In this document: piece by piece, positions 9,405-27,563 of the stretch
Layout: each line of letters opens with the position of its first letter
Numbering within the stretch: the stretch's first letter is position 1
Assembly: GCA_021372615.1 (NCBI GenBank)
Contig: JAJFUB010000027.1
Span: 1-61,669 of the forward strand
Direction: 5' to 3'
DNA length: 61,669 nucleotides
Source of the DNA: a bacterium
GTDB lineage: Bacteria > Armatimonadota > Zipacnadia > Zipacnadales > UBA11051
Position numbers and translations under genes: made by a program
Notes under the pieces: model-generated
Database searches by the model: none
Told to the model about the DNA's origin: nothing
What the model saw: the letters and a program-made list of their open reading frames with translations, nothing else

Positions 9405-10415
9405 TCAGAGGATCCGGGTGATCTCATCCTGGTCATAGCGCGGCATGGCCCGCGGGCGGCCGCGCTCCACAAGTATAACACCGTCCGCAGCCTCAGTGGC
9501 CGACCCGATCTGCGCGCAGGGCACACCCACGGCCGCGCACGCCGCCACGGCCCGGTCCACATCGTCCGCCGCCACCGCCGCCAGGAGCGAGCCGGAGGCG
9601 ATCAGGCCCAGCGGGTCAGCGCCGTACTCCGTGCACAGCCGCTGCCCCTCGGGCAGGATCGGGAGCCGCTCGGCCTCGATCCGCAGGCCCACACCGGAAG
9701 CCTCGGCCATCTCCCACAGCCCGGTCGCTACCCCACCCTCGGTGGGGTCGTGCAGGGCGTGGGGGCGCAGCGCCCCGCACAGCGCCCGGGCCTCGGGCAG
9801 GACCATGATCCCGGGATCGAGCAGCAGCCCCGCACAGCGGTCCAGGAAGGCGGGCTCGTACCCGCGCCCGAGCAGGTCCTCCCGCTTCTCGCGGGCAATG
9901 AGCGACACGCCCTCCAGCGGGAGGCCCTTGGTCAGCAGGATGGCGTCACCCGGGCGGGTCCCGTCGGGCCGCACGAGGGCGCCACGGGCAACCGTGCCGA
10001 GCATCTGCCCGATGAGGATCGGCCGGTCCAATCCGACCGTGATCTCCGTATGCCCGCCGATAAGGCTGATCCCCGTCGTGGCGCAGGCCTGGCGGAGCTG
10101 GGCGAAGATGTCCTCCACCCGCGCCTCGGTGGTGTGCTTCTCGGGCAGCAACGCCGTCACGAGCAGCCAGCGCGGCACGCCCCCGCTGGTGGCAAGGTCG
10201 TTGCTGTTCACCGCCACCAGGTAGTAGCCGATGGCGTCGGTGGCGAAGGTGATGGGATCGGTCTTGGTGAGGAGCAGCTCATCGTGGCCGAGGTCGAGGA
10301 CGGCCACATCGCGCCCCACGCCGGGGCCGATGACGACCTCCGGCGGCAGCTCAACCTGCGCCAGCAGGCGCGCCAACAGGGCGGCATCCAGTTTGCCCGG
10401 GGCCAGGGTCTTCAT
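9405..10415 (-). CDS. AIR synthase-related protein, HypE-like without the C-terminal Cys
   Basis: 336 residues of the PurM/HypE/SelD/ThiL superfamily. Present are VGRDVAVLDLG, the ATP-binding TKTDPITFATDAIGYYLVAVN, DLATSGGVPRW, IGGHTEIT and HALHDPTEGGVATGLWEMAEASG, all family landmarks. True HypE matures [NiFe] hydrogenase and ends in PRIC, its terminal Cys carrying the thiocarboxamide or cyanide. This protein ends DEITRIL, so that Cys is absent and hydrogenase maturation is unlikely. No hyp or hydrogenase gene is near. Its ATG overlaps the stop of the beta-helix gene (ATGA), so the two are translationally coupled. Actual substrate unknown. Confidence 0.85.
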   Translation of the reverse strand: MKTLAPGKLDAALLARLLAQVELPPEVVIGPGVGRDVAVLDLGHDELLLTKTDPITFATDAIGYYLVAVNSNDLATSGGVPRWLLVTALLPEKHTTEARVEDIFAQLRQACATTGISLIGGHTEITVGLDRPILIGQMLGTVARGALVRPDGTRPGDAILLTKGLPLEGVSLIAREKREDLLGRGYEPAFLDRCAGLLLDPGIMVLPEARALCGALRPHALHDPTEGGVATGLWEMAEASGVGLRIEAERLPILPEGQRLCTEYGADPLGLIASGSLLAAVAADDVDRAVAACAAVGVPCAQIGSATEAADGVILVERGRPRAMPRYDQDEITRIL

Positions 10416-12537: not shown

Positions 12538-13206
12538 TCAGCCAGACGCCAACAAATCCTCCACAAACGCCGGCACATCCGCATAGGACGCCTCGGCTCC
12601 GAGATCGGCGAAGTGCTCGGCCGTGGCGCCGGTGGTGTAGACGCCCACGCCGCGGCTGCCCGCCGCGTGGGCGCACTCCACATCGCTGCGGTGGTCGCCG
12701 ACCATCACGGCCTGTCCGGGCGCGACCCCGAGCTGCGCCAGAGCAGCCAGCAGGTGCGCCGGATGGGGCTTGACGATGTCCACGTCATCCCGCGTCAGGC
12801 GCACGTCATGCGGCAGCGGGTGGCGCGCCAGCAGTTGCTCCACGCAGGCGCGGCAGTTGCGGGTGACGATGCCGATCTTCAGCCCCGCGTCGTGCAGGCG
12901 CTGGAGCGCCTCCGGCACGCCGGGATAGGGTGCGGCCAGCGCGCAGGTCTCCATCTCGACATCCACCAGCACCTGGGCGGCCTGGGAGGCGAACTCGTCG
13001 CGCCGGGCCGGGTCGTCCAGCTTCGCCGCGGCCGACTCGATCACTTCCAGGACATAGCGGTTCTCGCCCATGCCCTCTTCCCACAGGCCCCACTGGCGGA
13101 CCAGGTCATAGATGCGGCGGCGCATCTCGCCGAAGTCAATGTTGGTCTCGGCGAGCGTCCCGTCGAAGTCGAAGATGACGGCCCGGATGTTGGGTGGGTG
13201 GTCCAT
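12538..13206 (-). CDS. HAD-superfamily phosphatase
   Basis: 222 residues, cytosolic. Motif I FDFDGTLAE carries the nucleophile Asp13 and Asp15; motif II is IGIVTRN (residues ~112-118); motif III is the Lys of DIVKPHPAHL; motif IV is MVGDHRSDV. The helical cap between motifs I and II is of C1 type, as in phosphoglycolate phosphatase and beta-phosphoglucomutase. It probably removes phosphate from a small sugar or organic phosphate. It heads the run HAD, beta-helix, HypE-like, metallophosphoesterase, with spacings of 14, -4 and 22 bp. Confidence 0.92.
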   Translation of the reverse strand: MDHPPNIRAVIFDFDGTLAETNIDFGEMRRRIYDLVRQWGLWEEGMGENRYVLEVIESAAAKLDDPARRDEFASQAAQVLVDVEMETCALAAPYPGVPEALQRLHDAGLKIGIVTRNCRACVEQLLARHPLPHDVRLTRDDVDIVKPHPAHLLAALAQLGVAPGQAVMVGDHRSDVECAHAAGSRGVGVYTTGATAEHFADLGAEASYADVPAFVEDLLASG

Positions 13207-16909: not shown

Positions 16910-16936
16910 GTAGGGCAGGCGATCTGCCTGCCCTAC
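16910..16936. repeat. GTAGGGCAGGC hairpin
   Basis: An 11-bp perfect stem (GTAGGGCAGGC / GCCTGCCCTAC) with a 5-nt loop, between the nuclease-like gene and the HNH_repeat gene. A second GC-rich palindromic stretch (16880-16905) precedes it. It resembles the other dispersed hairpin repeats and has no T-run. Confidence 0.75.
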
Positions 16937-16980: not shown

Positions 16981-17769
16981 CTATCCCTGCACACTCTCGT
17001 CATACGCGATGCCGGCGGCGCGCACGGCCTCGGCCCAACTGCCGAAGTTCTCGGTGCGACAGGCGGCTTCCATCAGTCCGCGGTAGCCCAGCCGGCGCAT
17101 GTTGCCGTTGTGCACCGATTGTCCCTGTTCGTGCAGGCCGGAGATGGTGTGGATGATCTTCTCGCGGGTCCAGCGGTTGATCTTGCGGATCTGGTCGTAG
17201 TCCAGTCCGGCGGCGCGAATGGCTCCGCCCCAACTGCCAAAATAGCGGGGGCTGCTGGCGGCGGACACCAGCGCGCCGTGGTAACGCTTGGCGTCCTCGT
17301 GACTGAGCGACTCGCCGGCCTCGTGTAGCTCGCGGATGCGCTCACAGATGCGCTCGCGGTCCCAATACTCGTGCTTGCTGACCTCTTCGTAGTCAATCCC
17401 CGCGGCCTCGATGGCCTCGCGCCAACTGCCGAAGAAGCGGTCGCTGATGGCGACGACCACCAGGTACTGGTGGTTGCGCTTGGCGGCCGAGTGCGACAGG
17501 TCTTCACCGCTCGCGTGTAGCTGCCGGATGCGCTCGAGGATATGCTCCTTGGTCCACTTGCGCTTGCGGCGGCAGACTTCCTTGGGGTCCAGCCCCGCCT
17601 CGATGATCGCGTTGCGCCAACTACTGAAATACTCGGGCTTGTACGATGTGGTGACCATGCCACTGTAGCCCAGTTCGGCCATGCTGCGGGTGCTCAACGA
17701 GTGTCCTGCAGCGGCCAGAGTCCGGATGTCCTCCATGATCTTTTCCCGGGACCATTTCTTGCGGCTCAT
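16981..17769 (-). CDS. four-repeat HNH_repeat-type DNA-binding protein, no nuclease domain
   Basis: 262 residues made wholly of four ~64-residue repeats starting near residues 5, 69, 133 and 196. The consensus is W-(T/S/D)-(R/K)-E-(K/R)-I...I..L...G.(S/D)LS......(Y/H)..L(V/M)..A....FGSW..AI.AAGLDY..(V/I). This matches the homing-endonuclease-associated repeat (Pfam HNH_repeat), a homeodomain-like helical unit seen beside HNH and other homing nucleases. No HNH, GIY-YIG or LAGLIDADG motif is present, so it is probably a free-standing DNA-binding array, possibly a regulator. It has a consensus promoter (17958-17986), unusual here. The DNA target is unknown. Confidence 0.8.
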   Translation of the reverse strand: MSRKKWSREKIMEDIRTLAAAGHSLSTRSMAELGYSGMVTTSYKPEYFSSWRNAIIEAGLDPKEVCRRKRKWTKEHILERIRQLHASGEDLSHSAAKRNHQYLVVVAISDRFFGSWREAIEAAGIDYEEVSKHEYWDRERICERIRELHEAGESLSHEDAKRYHGALVSAASSPRYFGSWGGAIRAAGLDYDQIRKINRWTREKIIHTISGLHEQGQSVHNGNMRRLGYRGLMEAACRTENFGSWAEAVRAAGIAYDESVQG

Positions 17770-17870: not shown

Positions 17871-17896
17871 GCCCTGGTGTGATCGGGCACCAGGGC
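17871..17896 (-). promoter_or_regulatory. leader hairpin of the HNH_repeat gene
   Basis: A perfect 9-bp stem (GCCCTGGTG / CACCAGGGC) with an 8-nt loop, about 100 nt before the start codon within the predicted leader. It may be an operator or an RNA structure. Confidence 0.5.
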
Positions 17897-17957: not shown

Positions 17958-17986
17958 AATGTACCACAGCCGTCTGAGACTGTCAA
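17958..17986 (-). promoter_or_regulatory. consensus sigma-70 promoter of the HNH_repeat gene
   Basis: On the minus strand TTGACA (17981-17986) is followed by exactly 17 nt and TACATT (17958-17963). It points toward the gene starting at 17769 and would start transcription near 17951. It is the closest match to a housekeeping promoter that I found in the window. Confidence 0.8.
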
Positions 17987-19261: not shown

Positions 19262-22200
19262 CTACGGACTGGCCGTGGCGATGGTCGCGATGGGCGAGGT
19301 GGCGGTCTCCTGTCCGGACACGGCCACGGCCCGGACCCGGATCGTGCTCCCCGGTGGCAGGGAACCGATCCTGAGCTTGAGCTGCGCCTGGTAGCTGCCC
19401 TGCCCGGTCACCGCGGCGGTGCGAGCCGCCGGAGCGCCGTTGATGCTGTACTGGAGGTAGACGCTGCTACCGCCGGTTCCCGTCACGTCGGCGCTGAGGA
19501 CCAGGTCCTGGCCCACCAGCGCTGTCCCGGGCGTGTCGCTCAACTGCACCGACAGCGTCGCGGCGGCGGTGCTCAGGCTGCTGCTCTCGACGTCCGTGGA
19601 CGACGGGCTCGCGCTGCTGCTCGAGGAGGTGTTGTTGACCGGGATCGCCGAGACCTCTGCGGTGAACCCCGAGATCTGGTTGTAGCGACGATAGCGCATC
19701 TTGTAGTAGTAGCGGGTGCCATTGGTCAGCCCGCTGTCCACGTACGTCATCGGGTCGGTGGTGCCAGCGGCCGACACGATGATCGTCGGGGCCGCGGTGT
19801 AGGCGGTGGTGCCCGTGCGGCGGTAGATGTCGTACTGGCCGCCATAGCCGCCTTCGGTGGTCACGGTCGAGGTGGAGAACGACGGGGGCGGCGGCGGCGG
19901 GCCTACCTCGTCCTCGCTGTCGGAACGGTACCAGGTCAGCAAGAGCTGTCCGCCCGAATCGGCCGCTACGTCCGCGACCGTGAAGCTGGTCGGCGGATCG
20001 AAGGCCAGCACGTTGTTGTTCTCGGAGGCGCACTGGGCGGCAGTGCAGGCCTCGGACTCCTGGCCGCCGTTGGACACGGCTGTGATCGTGTACTCATACA
20101 GAACCAGGTCTATGGGCACCGTGGTGTCCGACCAGGAGTAGCTGGCGGCATTTGTCGCCGTCACCGTCCCGACCACACTCGGCGTCTGCGACACGTTGGC
20201 CATGCAGCGGTAGATGCGGTACGAGGCGACGTGGTCGCGCCCGATGCCGTCGTCACTGGATCGCGTCCAGGTCAGGTCAATGACCTTCCCGGTGTCATAC
20301 GGGTGGTCCACGGCGGTCAGACCGGACGGGGGCAGAACGGGGCGGTTGTCCACGGGCACGCCCGCTACCCTCGCGCTGGGCGCCGACGTTCCGGTCGCGC
20401 CGATCGCGACGGCCCAGCAGTAGTAGGTCTGGCCGGCGGTCAGGCCGCTGACCTGCGCTTCGTACCGCGCCGCCCGGGTGGCGACGACGGTGGCCCCGAA
20501 CGTGCCGGCCCCGGTGGTGCTGGTGGCCCAGAAGACCGTGTACTGCGTGACCTCGGGGTCGGCGGCGGTGTCGTCGGTCGAGGCGGCGAACGAGACCTTC
20601 AGAGAGGTCCCCGCGTCGCTCGGCCAGTCCTCGACCACGACGCCCGTGGGCGCGGCCGGCGGGGTGTTGTCCACTGGCACACCGATGGCGCTCGCCCGGG
20701 TGGACTCGTACTGGCCGTCGTACGCCGACACGCTGATGTTGTATGACGTGCCGGCGGTGAGCCCGGTCACCGTGTAGGCGTAGCTGGCCGACTTCGTCGC
20801 CGTGATCTCGCCGATGTATGTCGGGTCGGAGGCGTCGGCGGTGGCGACGACACCGGTCACGCTCTTGTAGACGAAGTACTTGGTCACATCGTTGATGCCC
20901 TTGCCGTCGTCGGCCGAGGCGTTGAAGGTCAGCCGCAGCGCCACCCCGTCGTCTCCGGCGACATCGGCCAGAGCCACGCTCTGCGGCGCCCCGGGCGGCA
21001 TGTTGTCCACCGGCGTGGCGTTCCCGCCGACCCGGGCTGACTCGTAGGCGCCGTCAAAGGCGGCGACCGTGATGTTGTAGGCCGTGCCCCGCGTCAGGCT
21101 GCCGATCGTGTAGGCGTAGCTGGCGGCGTCAGTCGCCGTGATGACCGCCACGCACACCGGGTCGGCCGTGTCGCTCGCGAGGCGCTTGTAGACGCGGTAT
21201 CTGCTGACATCGTTCGCGCCCGCACCGTCGTCGGCCGAGGCGTCGAAGGTGAGCGTGAGTGACGTCCCGGTGTCGCCCGGGGTATCCGCCACCACGACGT
21301 TGCGCGGCACGCCAGGTGGCAGGTTGTCCAGCGGCGTGCCGTTCGCGCCTACTCGAATGGACTCGTAGGTGCCGTCAAAGGCCGCCACCGAGATGCTGTA
21401 TGAGGTGCCCCGCGTCAGTCCGCCGACGGTGGAAGAGTAGCTGGCGGCCCCGGTCGCGGTGATGACCGCTACGCAGGTTGGGTCGGCAGTGTCACTCGCC
21501 AGGCGCTTGTACACGCGGTACCGCGTGACGTCCCTGGCGTTGGCCCCGTCATCGAGCGAGGCGTCGAAGGTCACGATCAGGGCCGTGCCGGCATCGCCGG
21601 GGACGTCCGCCACGACCACATTCCGCGGCGGGTCCGGGGCGATGTTGTCCGTCGGTACGCCGGAGACCCGCCCGGTCGGCGCCGACGAGCCCGTGGGAGC
21701 GACGGCGATCACCCAGAAGTAGTAGGTCTGCAGGGGCGTCAGGCCGGCGCACTTGGTCGCATACGTGGCCGAGCGCGTGGCCGTCACTTCCGCGACCTTG
21801 CTGCCCGCCGAGGTGGCGTCCGGCGCCTGGTAGATGTCGTACCGCGAGACCTCCCGGTCAGCGCTGGTGTCGTCGGTGGAGGCGTTGAAGGAGACGCGCA
21901 GCGCCGTGCCGTCATCATTCGGCCAGTCCACCACGGCCAGGCCCGTCGCGGGCGCCGGCAGGGTGTTGTCCAGAGGCGTGGCATCCCCGCCGACGCGAGC
22001 CGACTCGAAGGCCCCATCGTACGCGGCCACGGTGACGTTGTATGACACCCCGTTGGTCAGACCCGTGAGGTCATAGACATAGCTGCCCGCGCCGGTGGCG
22101 GTGATGACGGCCGCGCAGATCGGGTCGGCGGTGCTGCTGGTCGGCCGTCTGTAGATCCGGTAGCGCGTCACATCCTTGGCGCCGCTGCCGTCGTCCAGCG

Positions 22201-24607
22201 AGTTGTCGAAGGCGACCCGCAGGACGCCGCCGTCGTCATTGGGCACGTCCGCCACACGTACGTTCCGCGGCGCCCCCGGCGCCAGGTTGTCCAGCGGCGT
22301 GCCGTTCACGCTGACCCGCGTGGAGGTGAAGGTGCCGTCGTACGCCTCCACGCTGATGGTGTACACGAGGTTCCGCGTCAAGCCGCCGACGGTGTAGGAG
22401 TAGCTGGCGGCATTCGTCGCGGTGATGACGGCGACACAGGTCGGCTCGGCGGTGTCGGTGCCCAGGCGCCTGTAGACGCGGTATCGGTTCACATCATCGG
22501 CCCCGGCGCCATCGTCTGCCGAGGCGTTGAAGGTGAGCACCAGAGCCGTCCCGGCATCGTTGGGGGCGTCCGCGACCGCCACGTTCTGCGGCGGCCCGGG
22601 CGCCACGTTGTCCACCGGCGTACCGTTCGCGCTCACGCGTGCGGAGGCGTAGACGCCGTCAAAGGCCTCGACGAAGATGGTGTAGGTGGCGTTCCGGGTC
22701 AGGCCGCCGACCGTGTAGGAGTAGCTGGCGGCATTGGTCGCGGTGATGACCGCGATGCAGGTCGGCTCGGCCGTGTCGCTGGCTAGGCGCTTGTAGAGGC
22801 GGTAGCGAACGACGTCGTCGGCGCCTGTCCCATCGTCAGAGGAGGGCTGGAAGGTGACGTTCAGGGCCGTCCCGGCATCGGCCGGCGCATCGGTCACCGC
22901 CAGGTTCCGCGCCGGCCCCGGCGCCAGGTTGTCGAGCGGCACACCGTTCGCGCTCACCCGCGTGGACGTGAAGACCCCGTCAAAGGCCTCCACGAAGATG
23001 GTGTAGGTGACGTTGCGGGTCAGGCCGGTGACGGTGTACGAGTAGTTGGAGGCGTTGGTCGCGGTGATGACCGCGATGCAAGTCGGCTCGGCGGTGTCGG
23101 TGCCCAGGCGCTTGTAGACCCGGTACCGGTTCACGTCGTCGGCGCCGGTGCCGTCGTCGGAGGAGGCCTGGAAGGTGACGTTCAGGGCCGTCCCGGCGTC
23201 GCTCGGCGCATCGGTCACCGCCAGGTTCCGAGGCGGGCCCGGCGCCAGGTTGTCGAGCGGCACACCGTTCGCGCTCACCCGCGTGGACGTGAAGACGCCG
23301 TCAAAGGCCTCCACGAAGATGGTGTAGGTCGTGTTCCGCTTCAGCCCGGTGATGGTGTACGAGTAACTGGGGGCGTTCGTCGCCGTGATCACGGCGATAC
23401 AGGTCGGGTCGGTGGTGTCCGTGCCCAGGCGCTTGTAGACCCGGTAGCGGTTGACATCGTCGGCGCCGGTGCCATCGTCGGAGGAGGCCTGGAAGGCCAA
23501 CTGGAGCGCCGTTCCGGCGTCCCCCGCCACATCCGACACGGTCACATTGCGCGGAGCGCCGGGCGCCAGGTTGTCCACCGGCGTGCCGTTGGCGCTGACG
23601 CGCGTGGAAGTGTAGACGCCGTCAAAGGCCTCCACGAAGATGGTGTACGTCGTGTTCCGCTTCAGCCCGGTGACGGTGTAGGAGTAGCTGGACGCGTTGG
23701 TCGCGGTAATGACGGCGATGCAGGTCGGGGCCGTGGTGTCCGTGCCCAGGCGCTTGTAGACCCGGTAGCGGTTCACATCGTCGGCGCCGGTGCCGTCGTC
23801 CGAGGAGGGCTGGAAGGTGACGTTCAGGGCCGTCCCGGCGTCAGCCGCCACATCGGTGACCGCCAGGTTCCGCGGCGGGCCCGGCGCCAGGTTGTCGAGC
23901 GGCACACCGTTTGCGCTCACTCGCGTGGAGGCCGACGTGCCGTCGAAGGCGTCCACGAAGATCGTGTAGGTTGTGTTGCGCTTCAGCCCGGTGATCGTGT
24001 ACGCGTAGCTGGCGGCGTTGGTCGCCGTGATGACCGCAATGCAGGTCGGATCGGTGGTCTCGGTGCCCAGGCGCTTGTAGATCCGGTAGCGGTTGACATC
24101 ATCGGCGCCGGCGCCGTCGTCGGCCGAGGCGTTGAACGCCACCCGCAGCGCTGTCCCGGCATCGCCCGCCACGTCAGTCACCGCCAGGCTCTGGGGCGTC
24201 CCCGGCGGGGGGTTGTTGTTGACCGGGGTGGCATCGGCCGCGACTGCGCTGGACTCCGATACCCCATCGTAGGCCACGACGGAGATGTGGTAGGACACAC
24301 CAGCGGTCAGGCCGCCCAACGTGCAGGCGTAGCTGGCAGCGTTCGTCGCGGTGATGGTGTAGGCGCAGGTGCCCAGCCCGGTGCCGCTGGTCAGCCGCTT
24401 GTAGACGCGGTACCGGATGACGTCGTCGGCGCCCGCGCCATCGTCGGCCGAGGCGTTGAACGCGACGCGCAGAGCCGTCCCGGAATCGCCGGCAACGTCA
24501 GTCACTGCCAGGCTCTGTGGCGCCCCCGGGGCAGGATTGTCGGCCAGTGCGAAGCCGGCCAGCAAGAGGATGAAAGCGAGTGACACGGCGAATCTGTGTG
24601 ACCGCAT
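19262..24607 (-). CDS. giant secreted fibronectin type III repeat protein
   Basis: 1781 residues from the ATG at 24607, which starts a good signal peptide (about residues 1-22, ending AGFALAD). Fifteen FN3 domains follow, nearly all 107 residues, each with (L/A)PG.P..(L/V).V.D, (F/W).(A/P)S.DDG.GADDV.RYRVYKR, one Cys in most copies, ITATNAASY and RVS.NGTPLDN. A Ser-rich linker (near residue 1640) leads to a final ~100-residue Ig-like domain (LVGQDLVLSADVTGTGG). There is no LPXTG, PEP-CTERM or autotransporter signal. Such rods usually act as surface stalks, adhesins or spacers for carbohydrate binding. The longer frame to 24934 has no signal peptide and is not preferred. Confidence 0.93.
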   Translation of the reverse strand: MRSHRFAVSLAFILLLAGFALADNPAPGAPQSLAVTDVAGDSGTALRVAFNASADDGAGADDVIRYRVYKRLTSGTGLGTCAYTITATNAASYACTLGGLTAGVSYHISVVAYDGVSESSAVAADATPVNNNPPPGTPQSLAVTDVAGDAGTALRVAFNASADDGAGADDVNRYRIYKRLGTETTDPTCIAVITATNAASYAYTITGLKRNTTYTIFVDAFDGTSASTRVSANGVPLDNLAPGPPRNLAVTDVAADAGTALNVTFQPSSDDGTGADDVNRYRVYKRLGTDTTAPTCIAVITATNASSYSYTVTGLKRNTTYTIFVEAFDGVYTSTRVSANGTPVDNLAPGAPRNVTVSDVAGDAGTALQLAFQASSDDGTGADDVNRYRVYKRLGTDTTDPTCIAVITATNAPSYSYTITGLKRNTTYTIFVEAFDGVFTSTRVSANGVPLDNLAPGPPRNLAVTDAPSDAGTALNVTFQASSDDGTGADDVNRYRVYKRLGTDTAEPTCIAVITATNASNYSYTVTGLTRNVTYTIFVEAFDGVFTSTRVSANGVPLDNLAPGPARNLAVTDAPADAGTALNVTFQPSSDDGTGADDVVRYRLYKRLASDTAEPTCIAVITATNAASYSYTVGGLTRNATYTIFVEAFDGVYASARVSANGTPVDNVAPGPPQNVAVADAPNDAGTALVLTFNASADDGAGADDVNRYRVYRRLGTDTAEPTCVAVITATNAASYSYTVGGLTRNLVYTISVEAYDGTFTSTRVSVNGTPLDNLAPGAPRNVRVADVPNDDGGVLRVAFDNSLDDGSGAKDVTRYRIYRRPTSSTADPICAAVITATGAGSYVYDLTGLTNGVSYNVTVAAYDGAFESARVGGDATPLDNTLPAPATGLAVVDWPNDDGTALRVSFNASTDDTSADREVSRYDIYQAPDATSAGSKVAEVTATRSATYATKCAGLTPLQTYYFWVIAVAPTGSSAPTGRVSGVPTDNIAPDPPRNVVVADVPGDAGTALIVTFDASLDDGANARDVTRYRVYKRLASDTADPTCVAVITATGAASYSSTVGGLTRGTSYSISVAAFDGTYESIRVGANGTPLDNLPPGVPRNVVVADTPGDTGTSLTLTFDASADDGAGANDVSRYRVYKRLASDTADPVCVAVITATDAASYAYTIGSLTRGTAYNITVAAFDGAYESARVGGNATPVDNMPPGAPQSVALADVAGDDGVALRLTFNASADDGKGINDVTKYFVYKSVTGVVATADASDPTYIGEITATKSASYAYTVTGLTAGTSYNISVSAYDGQYESTRASAIGVPVDNTPPAAPTGVVVEDWPSDAGTSLKVSFAASTDDTAADPEVTQYTVFWATSTTGAGTFGATVVATRAARYEAQVSGLTAGQTYYCWAVAIGATGTSAPSARVAGVPVDNRPVLPPSGLTAVDHPYDTGKVIDLTWTRSSDDGIGRDHVASYRIYRCMANVSQTPSVVGTVTATNAASYSWSDTTVPIDLVLYEYTITAVSNGGQESEACTAAQCASENNNVLAFDPPTSFTVADVAADSGGQLLLTWYRSDSEDEVGPPPPPPSFSTSTVTTEGGYGGQYDIYRRTGTTAYTAAPTIIVSAAGTTDPMTYVDSGLTNGTRYYYKMRYRRYNQISGFTAEVSAIPVNNTSSSSSASPSSTDVESSSLSTAAATLSVQLSDTPGTALVGQDLVLSADVTGTGGSSVYLQYSINGAPAARTAAVTGQGSYQAQLKLRIGSLPPGSTIRVRAVAVSGQETATSPIATIATASP
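20346..24537. repeat. 321-bp tandem DNA repeat array encoding the FN3 domains
   Basis: The domain-boundary sequence (..GTTGTCC..) recurs near 20346, 20667, 21003, 21324, 21645, 21966, 22287, then about every 321 bp to 24213 and 24537. One interval is 336 bp. Units between about 22280 and 24210 are nearly identical at DNA level, which suggests recent expansion or gene conversion. Confidence 0.9.
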
Positions 24608-24815
24608 AGACCACCTCAGTAAGGGGTGCTCAAGAACAAGACTTGCGACAGCCCGAGCCTGGCGCCACGCGGCATCGGGACAGCCCAGGCACGAAGCTGC
24701 CGCTCGTGGTTTCTGACCGCCGGCAACGGCGAAATGTTCCGTCACAACCGCATCTTGTTGGCGTCCTGTCCCCCCGTGGGACGGGATGTTGCCACGAAGG
24801 CTCGCCCGGACCCCA
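24608..24815. other. gap before the FN3 gene
   Basis: 208 bp between the secreted glycosidase stop and the FN3 start. It has no clear promoter hexamers and no supported gene; the FN3 reading frame happens to stay open through it. Confidence 0.5.
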
Positions 24816-27563
24816 CTACAGGGCTGCCCGGGCCACCTCGTCAGCCGGTGGCTCGTCGCCGTCGTCCGTAAGCAGCAGTGCATCCAGGCGCGGGTTGACG
24901 GCGGCCGTGCCGCGCCCCTCCCGGGCCACCACACGGAACGTGAACGGGCCTTTGGGCAGTTTCAGGCGGATGGGCGCTCCCGGCGCCTCGCTCGTTGAGC
25001 CGCCGCCGCGGCCCGTCCAGTGCCATTTGTCCACCCCGATGCCGCAGTTGCCGATTGCCTTCCCGCCTTCGAGCGACAGCGGCTCGGGCGGCAGCCACAG
25101 GCCAAAGGACATATCGCCCCCGCCAGGATACATGACGCGCGACCACAGCGTCCACATGCCCTCGTGCGGGATGTCCACCTTGTACTCAGCGTACCACTCC
25201 TGGGCCCGGTCGAAACTCGGGTGCGCCGCGCAGACGACGAAGTCCCCGAAGGCGCCCGGCTCGGACACCCCGGCCTTGCTGCCGAGGGTCATCTGTCCCA
25301 CCAGCTTGCCGCTCTCGGCCTGGATCCACAGGCACTGCACCGGCCGATGGATGGCCTCGGCCGTCTCCAGCGCCGTCTGCAGTTGGGCCGCCGGCAGCGT
25401 CGAGATCAGCGCCAGTCGCCGGCTGCCCACATGCAGGCGCAGCTTGCCATTCAGTGCCTGGACAGGCACCGGCTGGCCGGCCACGTCCACCACGCGAAGC
25501 TGCTGCGGGGTCAACGGCAGGGCCAGGTCCGCCTCGCGGACATAGTGCCACAGAGTCGCGACGGAGCCGCCGCCCAGCGCCCCGATCGCCCCGCGCAAGT
25601 CATGACCGCCGGCGATGGTCGCTAAGGGCGTCACCGGCACGAAGTGGCGCTGCTTCCCGTCCACGACGAGTGCGAAGTCCCGGTCCTTCTCCTGCAGGCG
25701 CAGGCGGGTCTGCTCATCCACGCGCCGGTTCATGCGCAGGTCCTCGTAGGCTCCCACGATCTCCAGCACCCCGGGCGTCAGGGGGTGCTGCTCCATCTGG
25801 CCGAAGCCCGTCTCGAGCGAGATCGGGACATCGTGGCCCAGCGACTTGCACATCAGGTACTCGATCTCGTCCAGTTGCAGGCCGTCGGTGTTCTTCTGCT
25901 TGGGCCAGATCCCGAACCAGCCCAGCTCGCCCGGCATCATGTCTTCGCCGACGGACAGCATGTAGGCCACGGACTTGTTGATGTGCTCGCGCACGGTGGG
26001 CCACTTGTCAATCTGCGCCCCGGCCTGGATGGCCCCGTGCAGCGTGGCGAGGTAGACATCCACGGTGCTGCTGCGAGCGAAGGAGTGCCACAGCAGATGG
26101 GTCATGATCGTGCCCATATGGATGATCGGGCGCTTGGTGATCTTGCGCATCAGTGTCCCCTGGAAGTTGGAGACATAGGTGTTGAAGCGCGTACGGTCCA
26201 CGTCCTCGCCGCCGTCGAAGTAGATCATGTCGAAGCCACAGTTGTTGAAGATCGAGGCCAGGCGGCTGGTCGTTTCATCCAGTAGCGTTGTCTCCTGGTC
26301 CACGATGTAGCCGTTGATGCAGCCATCCACGCCATAGTGGCGGGCCTCGGTCCCGGACGCGTGGGCGGCGGCCTTCGTCCCCCACGCCCCGCGCTTGCAG
26401 CCCAGGAAAGTGTCGTAGACACCCTCGGGGCCGATGCTCTCGTACTGGATGATCTCATCATCCAGGATGACCTCGCGGTGCTTGGCCACCCCGCCCTCCC
26501 ACAGCTTCTGCGTGGCGACAGGGCTGCCAGGCCAATGACCTAGATCACCCGCCTTGATCTCGCTCTGGTCGGCCGTGATGCCGGCGGCGAGCGTCGTGCG
26601 ACGGTCCACCCAGAAGCGCCGGTCGGGTACGGGCGTGACGTACGCATCGGTCTTGCTGATCTTCGAGGCGAAGCAGTGCATGCCCACCTTGATGCCGGCG
26701 GCGTGCAGCTTATCCACGAAGGCCTTCAGCGCCTGCTCGTCGCGGAAGCGCGTCTCGTTGAACGTGTAGTGCCCCACGTGGCGGCACCAGGAACCCGAGC
26801 CCATCATGACCTGCCTGAAGCCCGTCAGCTTGCAGTACTCGATTATCTTCTCGGCGTCCTGCTCGCCCAGCGTCATGAACCAGTACGAGCCGCGCCGCAG
26901 TTCCGTGTCCTTGGCCGGCGTGCCGCTGGCGTCCTCGTTGGTCAGGAGCCCGAAGGCGTGCGAGGCCTCGCGCAGGATCGGCTTGAGCTGCGGGGTCGGG
27001 CAGACGATCAGGGCGCAAGCCGCCCCCTCGATCTTGGGCCCGGGAGCGTCCTGGGTCTGGGCGCGGAGGGTCGAGACACCCTTGCCCCGCGCCGCCCCGC
27101 AGTCCGCCTGGTGGTTGGCCGCCATCAGGCACACGGCGCGCTGCGCGTCATAGGCTGCGCTCAGGCGCCGGCCGACCTTCTCGGTGAGGTTGACGGGGAT
27201 CTGGCAGAGGGTCAGGCTCGTGGGCCGCTCGCCCGACACCCCGACGAGCTTGAGGACGAGCCAGTGAGCCGACGGTGTCACTTCATACGTCAGCTCCGTG
27301 CCCGTCTTGGCGAAGCCGAGGGTCAGCGTGTCGCCGGCCAACCGGGCCGACGAGCAGGGCCCGCTGCCCCTGGCGGTGCTGACCTGGGCGATGGGCAGAT
27401 TGGCCGCCGCCACGCACAGCTCGGCCCCGTCAGCGCCCTGCAGTGACTTCCAGAGGCCTTCGTCACTCAGCGTGACCGTGGCGGTGGGCGCCTTGATGAC
27501 GACATCGGCGGCGGCCAGCGAGGCAGCCGCCAGAAGGGCAACCAGCAGCGTAGTCCTGGACAT
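24816..27563 (-). CDS. large secreted TIM-barrel glycosidase-like protein
   Basis: 915 residues with a signal peptide (1-19, LLVALLAAASLAAAD). An N-terminal beta-sandwich (about 20-235) precedes a barrel: RGSYWFMTLGEQ, AEKIIEYCKLTGFRQVMMGSG, AFVDKLHAAGIKVGMHCF, and FDMIYFDGGEDVD, whose Asp lies at the strand end where clan GH-D and related enzymes carry a nucleophile. The C-terminal part has another beta-rich domain and a jelly-roll-like segment (YKVDIPHEGMWTLWSRVMYPGGGD) that resembles a carbohydrate-binding module. I infer an exported glycosidase related to GH36/GH101-type barrels; the family is uncertain. The gap of 208 bp to the FN3 gene has no clear promoter. Confidence 0.65.
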   Translation of the reverse strand: MSRTTLLVALLAAASLAAADVVIKAPTATVTLSDEGLWKSLQGADGAELCVAAANLPIAQVSTARGSGPCSSARLAGDTLTLGFAKTGTELTYEVTPSAHWLVLKLVGVSGERPTSLTLCQIPVNLTEKVGRRLSAAYDAQRAVCLMAANHQADCGAARGKGVSTLRAQTQDAPGPKIEGAACALIVCPTPQLKPILREASHAFGLLTNEDASGTPAKDTELRRGSYWFMTLGEQDAEKIIEYCKLTGFRQVMMGSGSWCRHVGHYTFNETRFRDEQALKAFVDKLHAAGIKVGMHCFASKISKTDAYVTPVPDRRFWVDRRTTLAAGITADQSEIKAGDLGHWPGSPVATQKLWEGGVAKHREVILDDEIIQYESIGPEGVYDTFLGCKRGAWGTKAAAHASGTEARHYGVDGCINGYIVDQETTLLDETTSRLASIFNNCGFDMIYFDGGEDVDRTRFNTYVSNFQGTLMRKITKRPIIHMGTIMTHLLWHSFARSSTVDVYLATLHGAIQAGAQIDKWPTVREHINKSVAYMLSVGEDMMPGELGWFGIWPKQKNTDGLQLDEIEYLMCKSLGHDVPISLETGFGQMEQHPLTPGVLEIVGAYEDLRMNRRVDEQTRLRLQEKDRDFALVVDGKQRHFVPVTPLATIAGGHDLRGAIGALGGGSVATLWHYVREADLALPLTPQQLRVVDVAGQPVPVQALNGKLRLHVGSRRLALISTLPAAQLQTALETAEAIHRPVQCLWIQAESGKLVGQMTLGSKAGVSEPGAFGDFVVCAAHPSFDRAQEWYAEYKVDIPHEGMWTLWSRVMYPGGGDMSFGLWLPPEPLSLEGGKAIGNCGIGVDKWHWTGRGGGSTSEAPGAPIRLKLPKGPFTFRVVAREGRGTAAVNPRLDALLLTDDGDEPPADEVARAAL

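Follow-up and report, generated by a model that had tools for sequence, protein, structure and literature searches.

The repeat family PF18780 (HNH_repeat, the homing endonuclease associated repeat) is named for homing nucleases, and in several proteins it is joined to another DNA-acting domain. A Halolamina protein (P0004) carries five repeats and an HNH nuclease domain, the latter just under the Pfam cut-off; an HNH endonuclease of the phylum Armatimonadota (L063) has two repeats and an HNH domain; and a Brevibacillus plasmid protein (P0002), annotated as 'helix-turn-helix transcriptional regulator', bears PF18780-type repeats and an additional HTH_3 domain. Repeats standing alone are also on record: WP_011222312.1 (P0003), encoded by plasmid pHMA133 of Haloarcula marismortui and annotated as hypothetical, has 238 aa and consists of four PF18780 repeats only. 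The family is widespread, yet the literature searched mentions it once, in passing, and there we found no functional study of PF18780 and no described function for the free-standing form.

Here we analysed a gene for such a free-standing array, located in a stretch of 61,669 nucleotides (hereafter the window) from a bacterium of the Armatimonadota. Its 262-aa product has the repeat in common with the above proteins, in four copies, but lacks the HNH domain of the Halolamina protein and of L063 and the HTH_3 domain of the Brevibacillus protein. It differs from the Haloarcula protein, which is plasmid-borne and made of other repeats (about 28% identity). Because of the Haloarcula example and of many relatives within the phylum, the free-standing array is not novel: it is an already known kind of protein, and not unique. 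What is new is the genomic context of the four-repeat gene, namely a conserved block and vertical inheritance.

The protein and its repeats

The gene lies at positions 16981..17769 of the window on the minus strand, where an ATG opens a frame of 262 aa with a single terminal stop; the plus strand of the same interval is broken by stop codons. Pfam recognised PF18780 in four separate stretches (E 1.9e-21, 76.6 bits against a curated cut-off of 26) and no other family above its curated cut-off. Nuclease domains (HNH, LAGLIDADG, GIY-YIG etc.) were absent above cut-off with both Pfam and NCBIfam, and NCBIfam gave no family above its cut-off. A preliminary description, made from the letters alone, had presented the protein as four HNH_repeat units of about 64 residues and nothing else, with no nuclease motif, and these points were all borne out; it had named no strand. 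Sequence search of the PDB and the PADLOC search returned no match, and the PHROGs match, phrog_22655 (E 4.5e-24), is annotated as of unknown function. Since the profile match is accompanied by orthologous loci of identical layout, the gene is not a chance ORF. A profile search of the genome showed it to encode the sole PF18780 protein present.

The repeats start at W6, W72, W136 and W200, with spacings of 66, 64 and 64, that is a period of 64-66 aa, within the range of about 54-66 aa that defines tandem PF18780 units. All on the minus strand, repeat 1 covers aa 6-71 (17557..17754), repeat 2 aa 72-135 (17365..17556), repeat 3 aa 136-199 (17173..17364) and repeat 4 aa 200-262 (16984..17172). 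The ending FGSW..AI.AAG(L/I)DY, previously ascribed to all of them, is found in repeats 2 and 3 and with small variations (AVRAAGIAY) in repeat 4, and does not hold for repeat 1 (FSSWRNAIIEAGLDP). A pI of 9.05 and a net charge of +5 (+8 to +31 in orthologues) are compatible with DNA binding, as had been anticipated.

In the AlphaFold2 model, built from five sequences, every repeat is confidently helical: the protein forms four four-helix units and has one short helix in a linker (mean pLDDT 85). How the units are arranged is uncertain because pTM was 0.51. From a 20-row alignment, one repeat alone was modelled with a pLDDT of 84, and here helices 2 and 3 were fused into a single helix. Foldseek and VIA-align searches of solved structures, with the whole protein and with a single repeat, gave no solid fold match. 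Weak resemblances, with Z at most 4.2, were to TetR-type DNA-binding domains and a ribosomal protein; since ribosomal proteins are among these matches, RNA binding is a possibility as well.

The four repeats were compared within and between repeat positions among ten orthologues. Within a position identity was about 0.70, and between positions it did not exceed 0.52. For the predicted helix 2, turn and helix 3, identity was 0.83, 0.77 and 0.88 within positions versus 0.22, 0.19 and 0.29 between them, the corresponding values being 0.56 versus 0.48 for helix 1 and 0.72 versus 0.60 for helix 4. The slot-specific helix 2-3 segments are aa 27-42 (TRSMAELGYSGMVTTS), 93-108 (HSAAKRNHQYLVVVAI), 157-172 (HEDAKRYHGALVSAAS) and 221-236 (NGNMRRLGYRGLMEAA) in repeats 1 to 4. 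Position 31 of the repeat frame is S, Q, G and R in repeats 1 to 4, and position 35 is T, V, S and E, each about 0.95 conserved. HMMs specific for each slot showed that the order of the repeats is kept in other families; in G042, for example, slots 1-2-3 were recognised. The residues proposed earlier to encode target choice do differ among repeats, and are nearly fixed per repeat position across genera, which lends that proposal genuine support. Slot-specific conservation of this kind would be expected of an array whose repeats read distinct, unchanging parts of a single target. It is no proof of target reading, because a fixed protein partner would give an identical pattern.

Profile search found PF18780 in 104 of 291 Armatimonadota genomes, in both free-standing and fused proteins. 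G198 has, like L063, a nuclease-fused member, L067 shows six recognised repeats and no partner domain, and nuclease-free relatives occur throughout the phylum. DNA binding is supported by association, in that the fusion partners (HNH, HTH_3, N6/N4 DNA methylase) are DNA-acting. The methylase (L011:67-1686) bears one C-terminal HNH_repeat, and several genomes of the phylum have ORFs near its length, of 588-601 aa, in which PF18780 is matched. Genome G272 (L064) contains several frames with PF18780, of which two are adjacent and one has an extra non-repeat C-terminal region. No relative was found in the phage collection, and viral contigs gave partial matches only, one being a one-repeat phage protein. 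On viral contig L058 (3989-4309), a 106-aa protein combines a single HNH_repeat with a small cysteine-containing tail (CSYPNCTGVHHAGGMCQKH), and the related contig L057 has a match in an equivalent gene neighbourhood.

A fixed place ahead of the PF02577 gene

Downstream of the repeat gene, and on the same minus strand, come a bifunctional nuclease domain gene (PF02577, 16319..16843), a UPF0182 protein gene (PF03699, 13272..16286), a HAD hydrolase gene (12538..13206) and, conserved further downstream, the gene of an AIR-synthase-related kinase, presumably ThiL-like (9405..10415). The repeat gene was present in 7/7 genomes of its own family, with 68-75% identity for the six relatives aligned, and the whole block is found again in f1, f3 and f6, families of the same order. 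At least its first genes are kept in f7 and f8, which belong to other orders of the class, again with the repeat gene before PF02577. Three orders, and many genera, carry one intact copy in this fixed slot. A two-repeat version occupies it in genera g5 and g16, and a three-repeat version in G042 (f8). Relatives in f9 and f10 are four-repeat proteins too, but in a different gene context.

In 19 order-mates without the repeat gene, PF02577 still adjoins UPF0182, so the slot is clean. No mobility of the repeat gene was seen across the families compared, though absences occur, and its absence from several families of the order makes it dispensable. Pairwise dN/dS was 0.04-0.22, using pairs with unsaturated (finite) dS only, values that are rough because dS is high. 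Distances between repeat proteins track those between UPF0182 proteins (Mantel r 0.66, p 2e-4). We conclude from these sequence comparisons that the gene is vertically inherited and under purifying selection, and the domestication proposed at the outset agrees with the conserved synteny, the low dN/dS and the co-inheritance. Long retention of the gene at the head of one operon suggests the conversion of a component of selfish DNA into a gene regulator.

Two further repeated elements of the window can be mentioned. Upstream of the URO-D gene, a 1890-aa ORF (19262-24934, minus strand) contains many repeats of roughly 90-100 residues, fibronectin-like by eye. Between the repeat gene and the PF02577 gene lies a REP-like palindrome, GGGCAGGC-N(2-8)-GCCTGCCC (16913-16933), which is expanded genome-wide (96 sites vs 0 for the reversed control). 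Its dispersed form, GGGCAGGC-N-GCCTGCCC, was considered as a target of the repeat protein and rejected: there are 96 copies here and 0-4 in gene-bearing members of the family, and 32 copies in G028, from another family, where no repeat gene was found.

Promoter and leader

A sigma-70-like promoter, TTGACA - 17 nt (ending TGG) - TACATT, is found at 17958..17986 (minus strand), and such a promoter was present in 14/14 repeat-gene leaders examined, mostly as TTGAC[AT] - 17 nt with TG before the -10. The sites used in these 14 leaders lie about 115-260 nt upstream of the start codon. In 14/17 loci checked that lack the repeat gene, the PF02577 gene is itself immediately preceded by a similar promoter. 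This equivalence indicates that the repeat gene, the first same-strand gene behind the conserved promoter, is probably the first gene of a PF02577-UPF0182 operon and presumably co-transcribed with it.

Between promoter and start codon, 11/14 gene-bearing leaders have a terminator-like hairpin followed by a T-run, against 2.6 expected from dinucleotide shuffles; among leaders without the gene the figure is 2/14, against 0.6 expected. In many cases the stem is fixed: CCTGYC-N-GRCAGG with a T-run occurs in 11/18 gene-bearing leaders vs 0/19 leaders without the gene (Fisher p 4e-5, uncorrected for kinship), p-values here being optimistic because the species are related. This hairpin was noticed by inspection in the same leaders that were later counted, so that only G021, G026 and G040, which lay outside the motif-finding set and carry it as well, are out-of-sample. 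It occurs in families f3 and f6 and in some members of f1, and among seven f3/f6 leaders the twelve stem columns are invariant and the T-run is conserved, while loop and flanks differ. Genomes contain a relaxed pattern only about 1-5 times, in many cases just once, namely in the repeat-gene leader.

The CCTGYC hairpin was not found in the leaders of the window, G001, G003, G005, G030, G041 and G042, and for this reason cannot be a universal target. In its place the window has an unrelated hairpin, GCCCTGGTG-N8-CACCAGGGC (17871..17896, minus strand; -18.9 kcal/mol, z -3.4), with no T-run, where orthologues have the terminator-like one. No operator words shared by the upstream regions rose above shuffled sequence, the promoter being the sole motif common to all leaders, and no Rfam family was matched. 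The REP-like palindrome and the leader hairpins of relatives share a CCTGCC half-site, which is probably a coincidence.

Possible roles and comparison with known systems

The reading that we prefer, and to which we give about an even chance, is that of a domesticated, nuclease-free, sequence-specific nucleic-acid-binding protein controlling its own operon. The four-repeat array would bind one fixed nucleic-acid sequence, DNA or perhaps RNA, each repeat being a small helical unit that contacts the target through helix 2-turn-helix 3. Aligned along the site, the four repeats would each read a different piece of it. A regulator would in this way be encoded at the head of the operon that it controls (repeat protein, bifunctional nuclease, UPF0182, HAD, ThiL-like), and its likely point of action would be the leader, between the sigma-70-like promoter and the start codon. 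There it may set the amount of transcription entering the operon; autoregulation and its sign are inferred, as are DNA (or RNA) binding, co-transcription and the identity of the target. Of the two roles suggested in the preliminary description, regulator or anti-recombination factor, it is the former that finds indirect support, from the head position in an operon-like block and the conserved leader hairpin of relatives. Against self-regulation, four unlike repeats have no obvious fit to an inverted repeat.

The protein might instead be a domesticated sequence-specific DNA-binding protein acting elsewhere, on a distant regulon or in chromosome organisation, and merely sited at the operon head. 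The protein evidence (PF18780, slot conservation, DNA-acting fusion partners) is identical for this explanation and for self-regulation, and the leaders share no operator, several of them, that of the window included, being without the hairpin. The hairpin is nevertheless tied to the presence of the repeat gene (0/19 without it) and nearly unique in the genome, which points to local control, and we consider distant action rather unlikely. Local control could also bypass the repeat protein: a strong promoter, a hairpin with T-run and then the gene form the classic layout of transcription attenuation, which here might depend on a leader peptide, on a metabolite or on general termination; the absence of any Rfam match was counted on this side. 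But loci without the repeat gene lack the hairpin as well, although promoter and rest of the operon remain, and an attenuator under such other control, with no role for the repeat protein, seems unlikely.

Two explanations closer to homing itself fare worse. Anti-homing or anti-recombination activity, by masking the target sites of mobile nucleases, draws on the repeat shared with homing nucleases and nothing more. The genome holds no other PF18780 protein, hence no homing nuclease with such repeats, no homing element, phage or recombination gene adjoins the repeat gene, and neither PADLOC nor the phage collection offered a counterpart; we regard this role as very improbable. A homing endonuclease remnant that lost its nuclease and is now decaying would account for the family name and for the nuclease-fused members in the phylum (L063, G198). 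It is hardly credible in view of a dN/dS of 0.04-0.22, of the single intact copy that many genera of three orders keep in a fixed slot, of slot-specific residues that are almost invariant and of nuclease-free relatives throughout the phylum.

Returning to the self-regulating DNA- or RNA-binding protein, a narrower version can be proposed, which we hold to be doubtful: a homing-nuclease repeat turned into a stand-alone autogenous regulator, with a code of one unit per subsite in helix 2-3 and a dedicated leader hairpin serving as DNA operator or RNA attenuator. Were it true, modular proteins that recognise nucleic acids would gain a new class, and so would attenuation control. The preferred reading, if true, would already show clearly the recruitment of a homing-endonuclease module by its host as regulator. 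With its slot-by-slot conservation, no nuclease and a candidate target in its own leader, the array makes questions of binding and of unit code tractable.

Among solved DNA-binding folds, the TetR-type domain offers an analogy only: a long helix, a helix-turn-helix and a further helix are also present in the predicted repeat, and repeat 2 aligned with 2hyt over 53 residues (Z 4.2, 3.5 A), a weak match. Homology found no support in profile comparison (hhalign probability 1%), and the single-repeat structure search listed no TetR chain. TALE and PUF proteins are modular repeat binders. The array of like units is common to them and to the protein described here, in which the slot-specific residues are, from sequence, candidates for contact with the target; fold, unit length and code of the PF18780 array may all differ from theirs.
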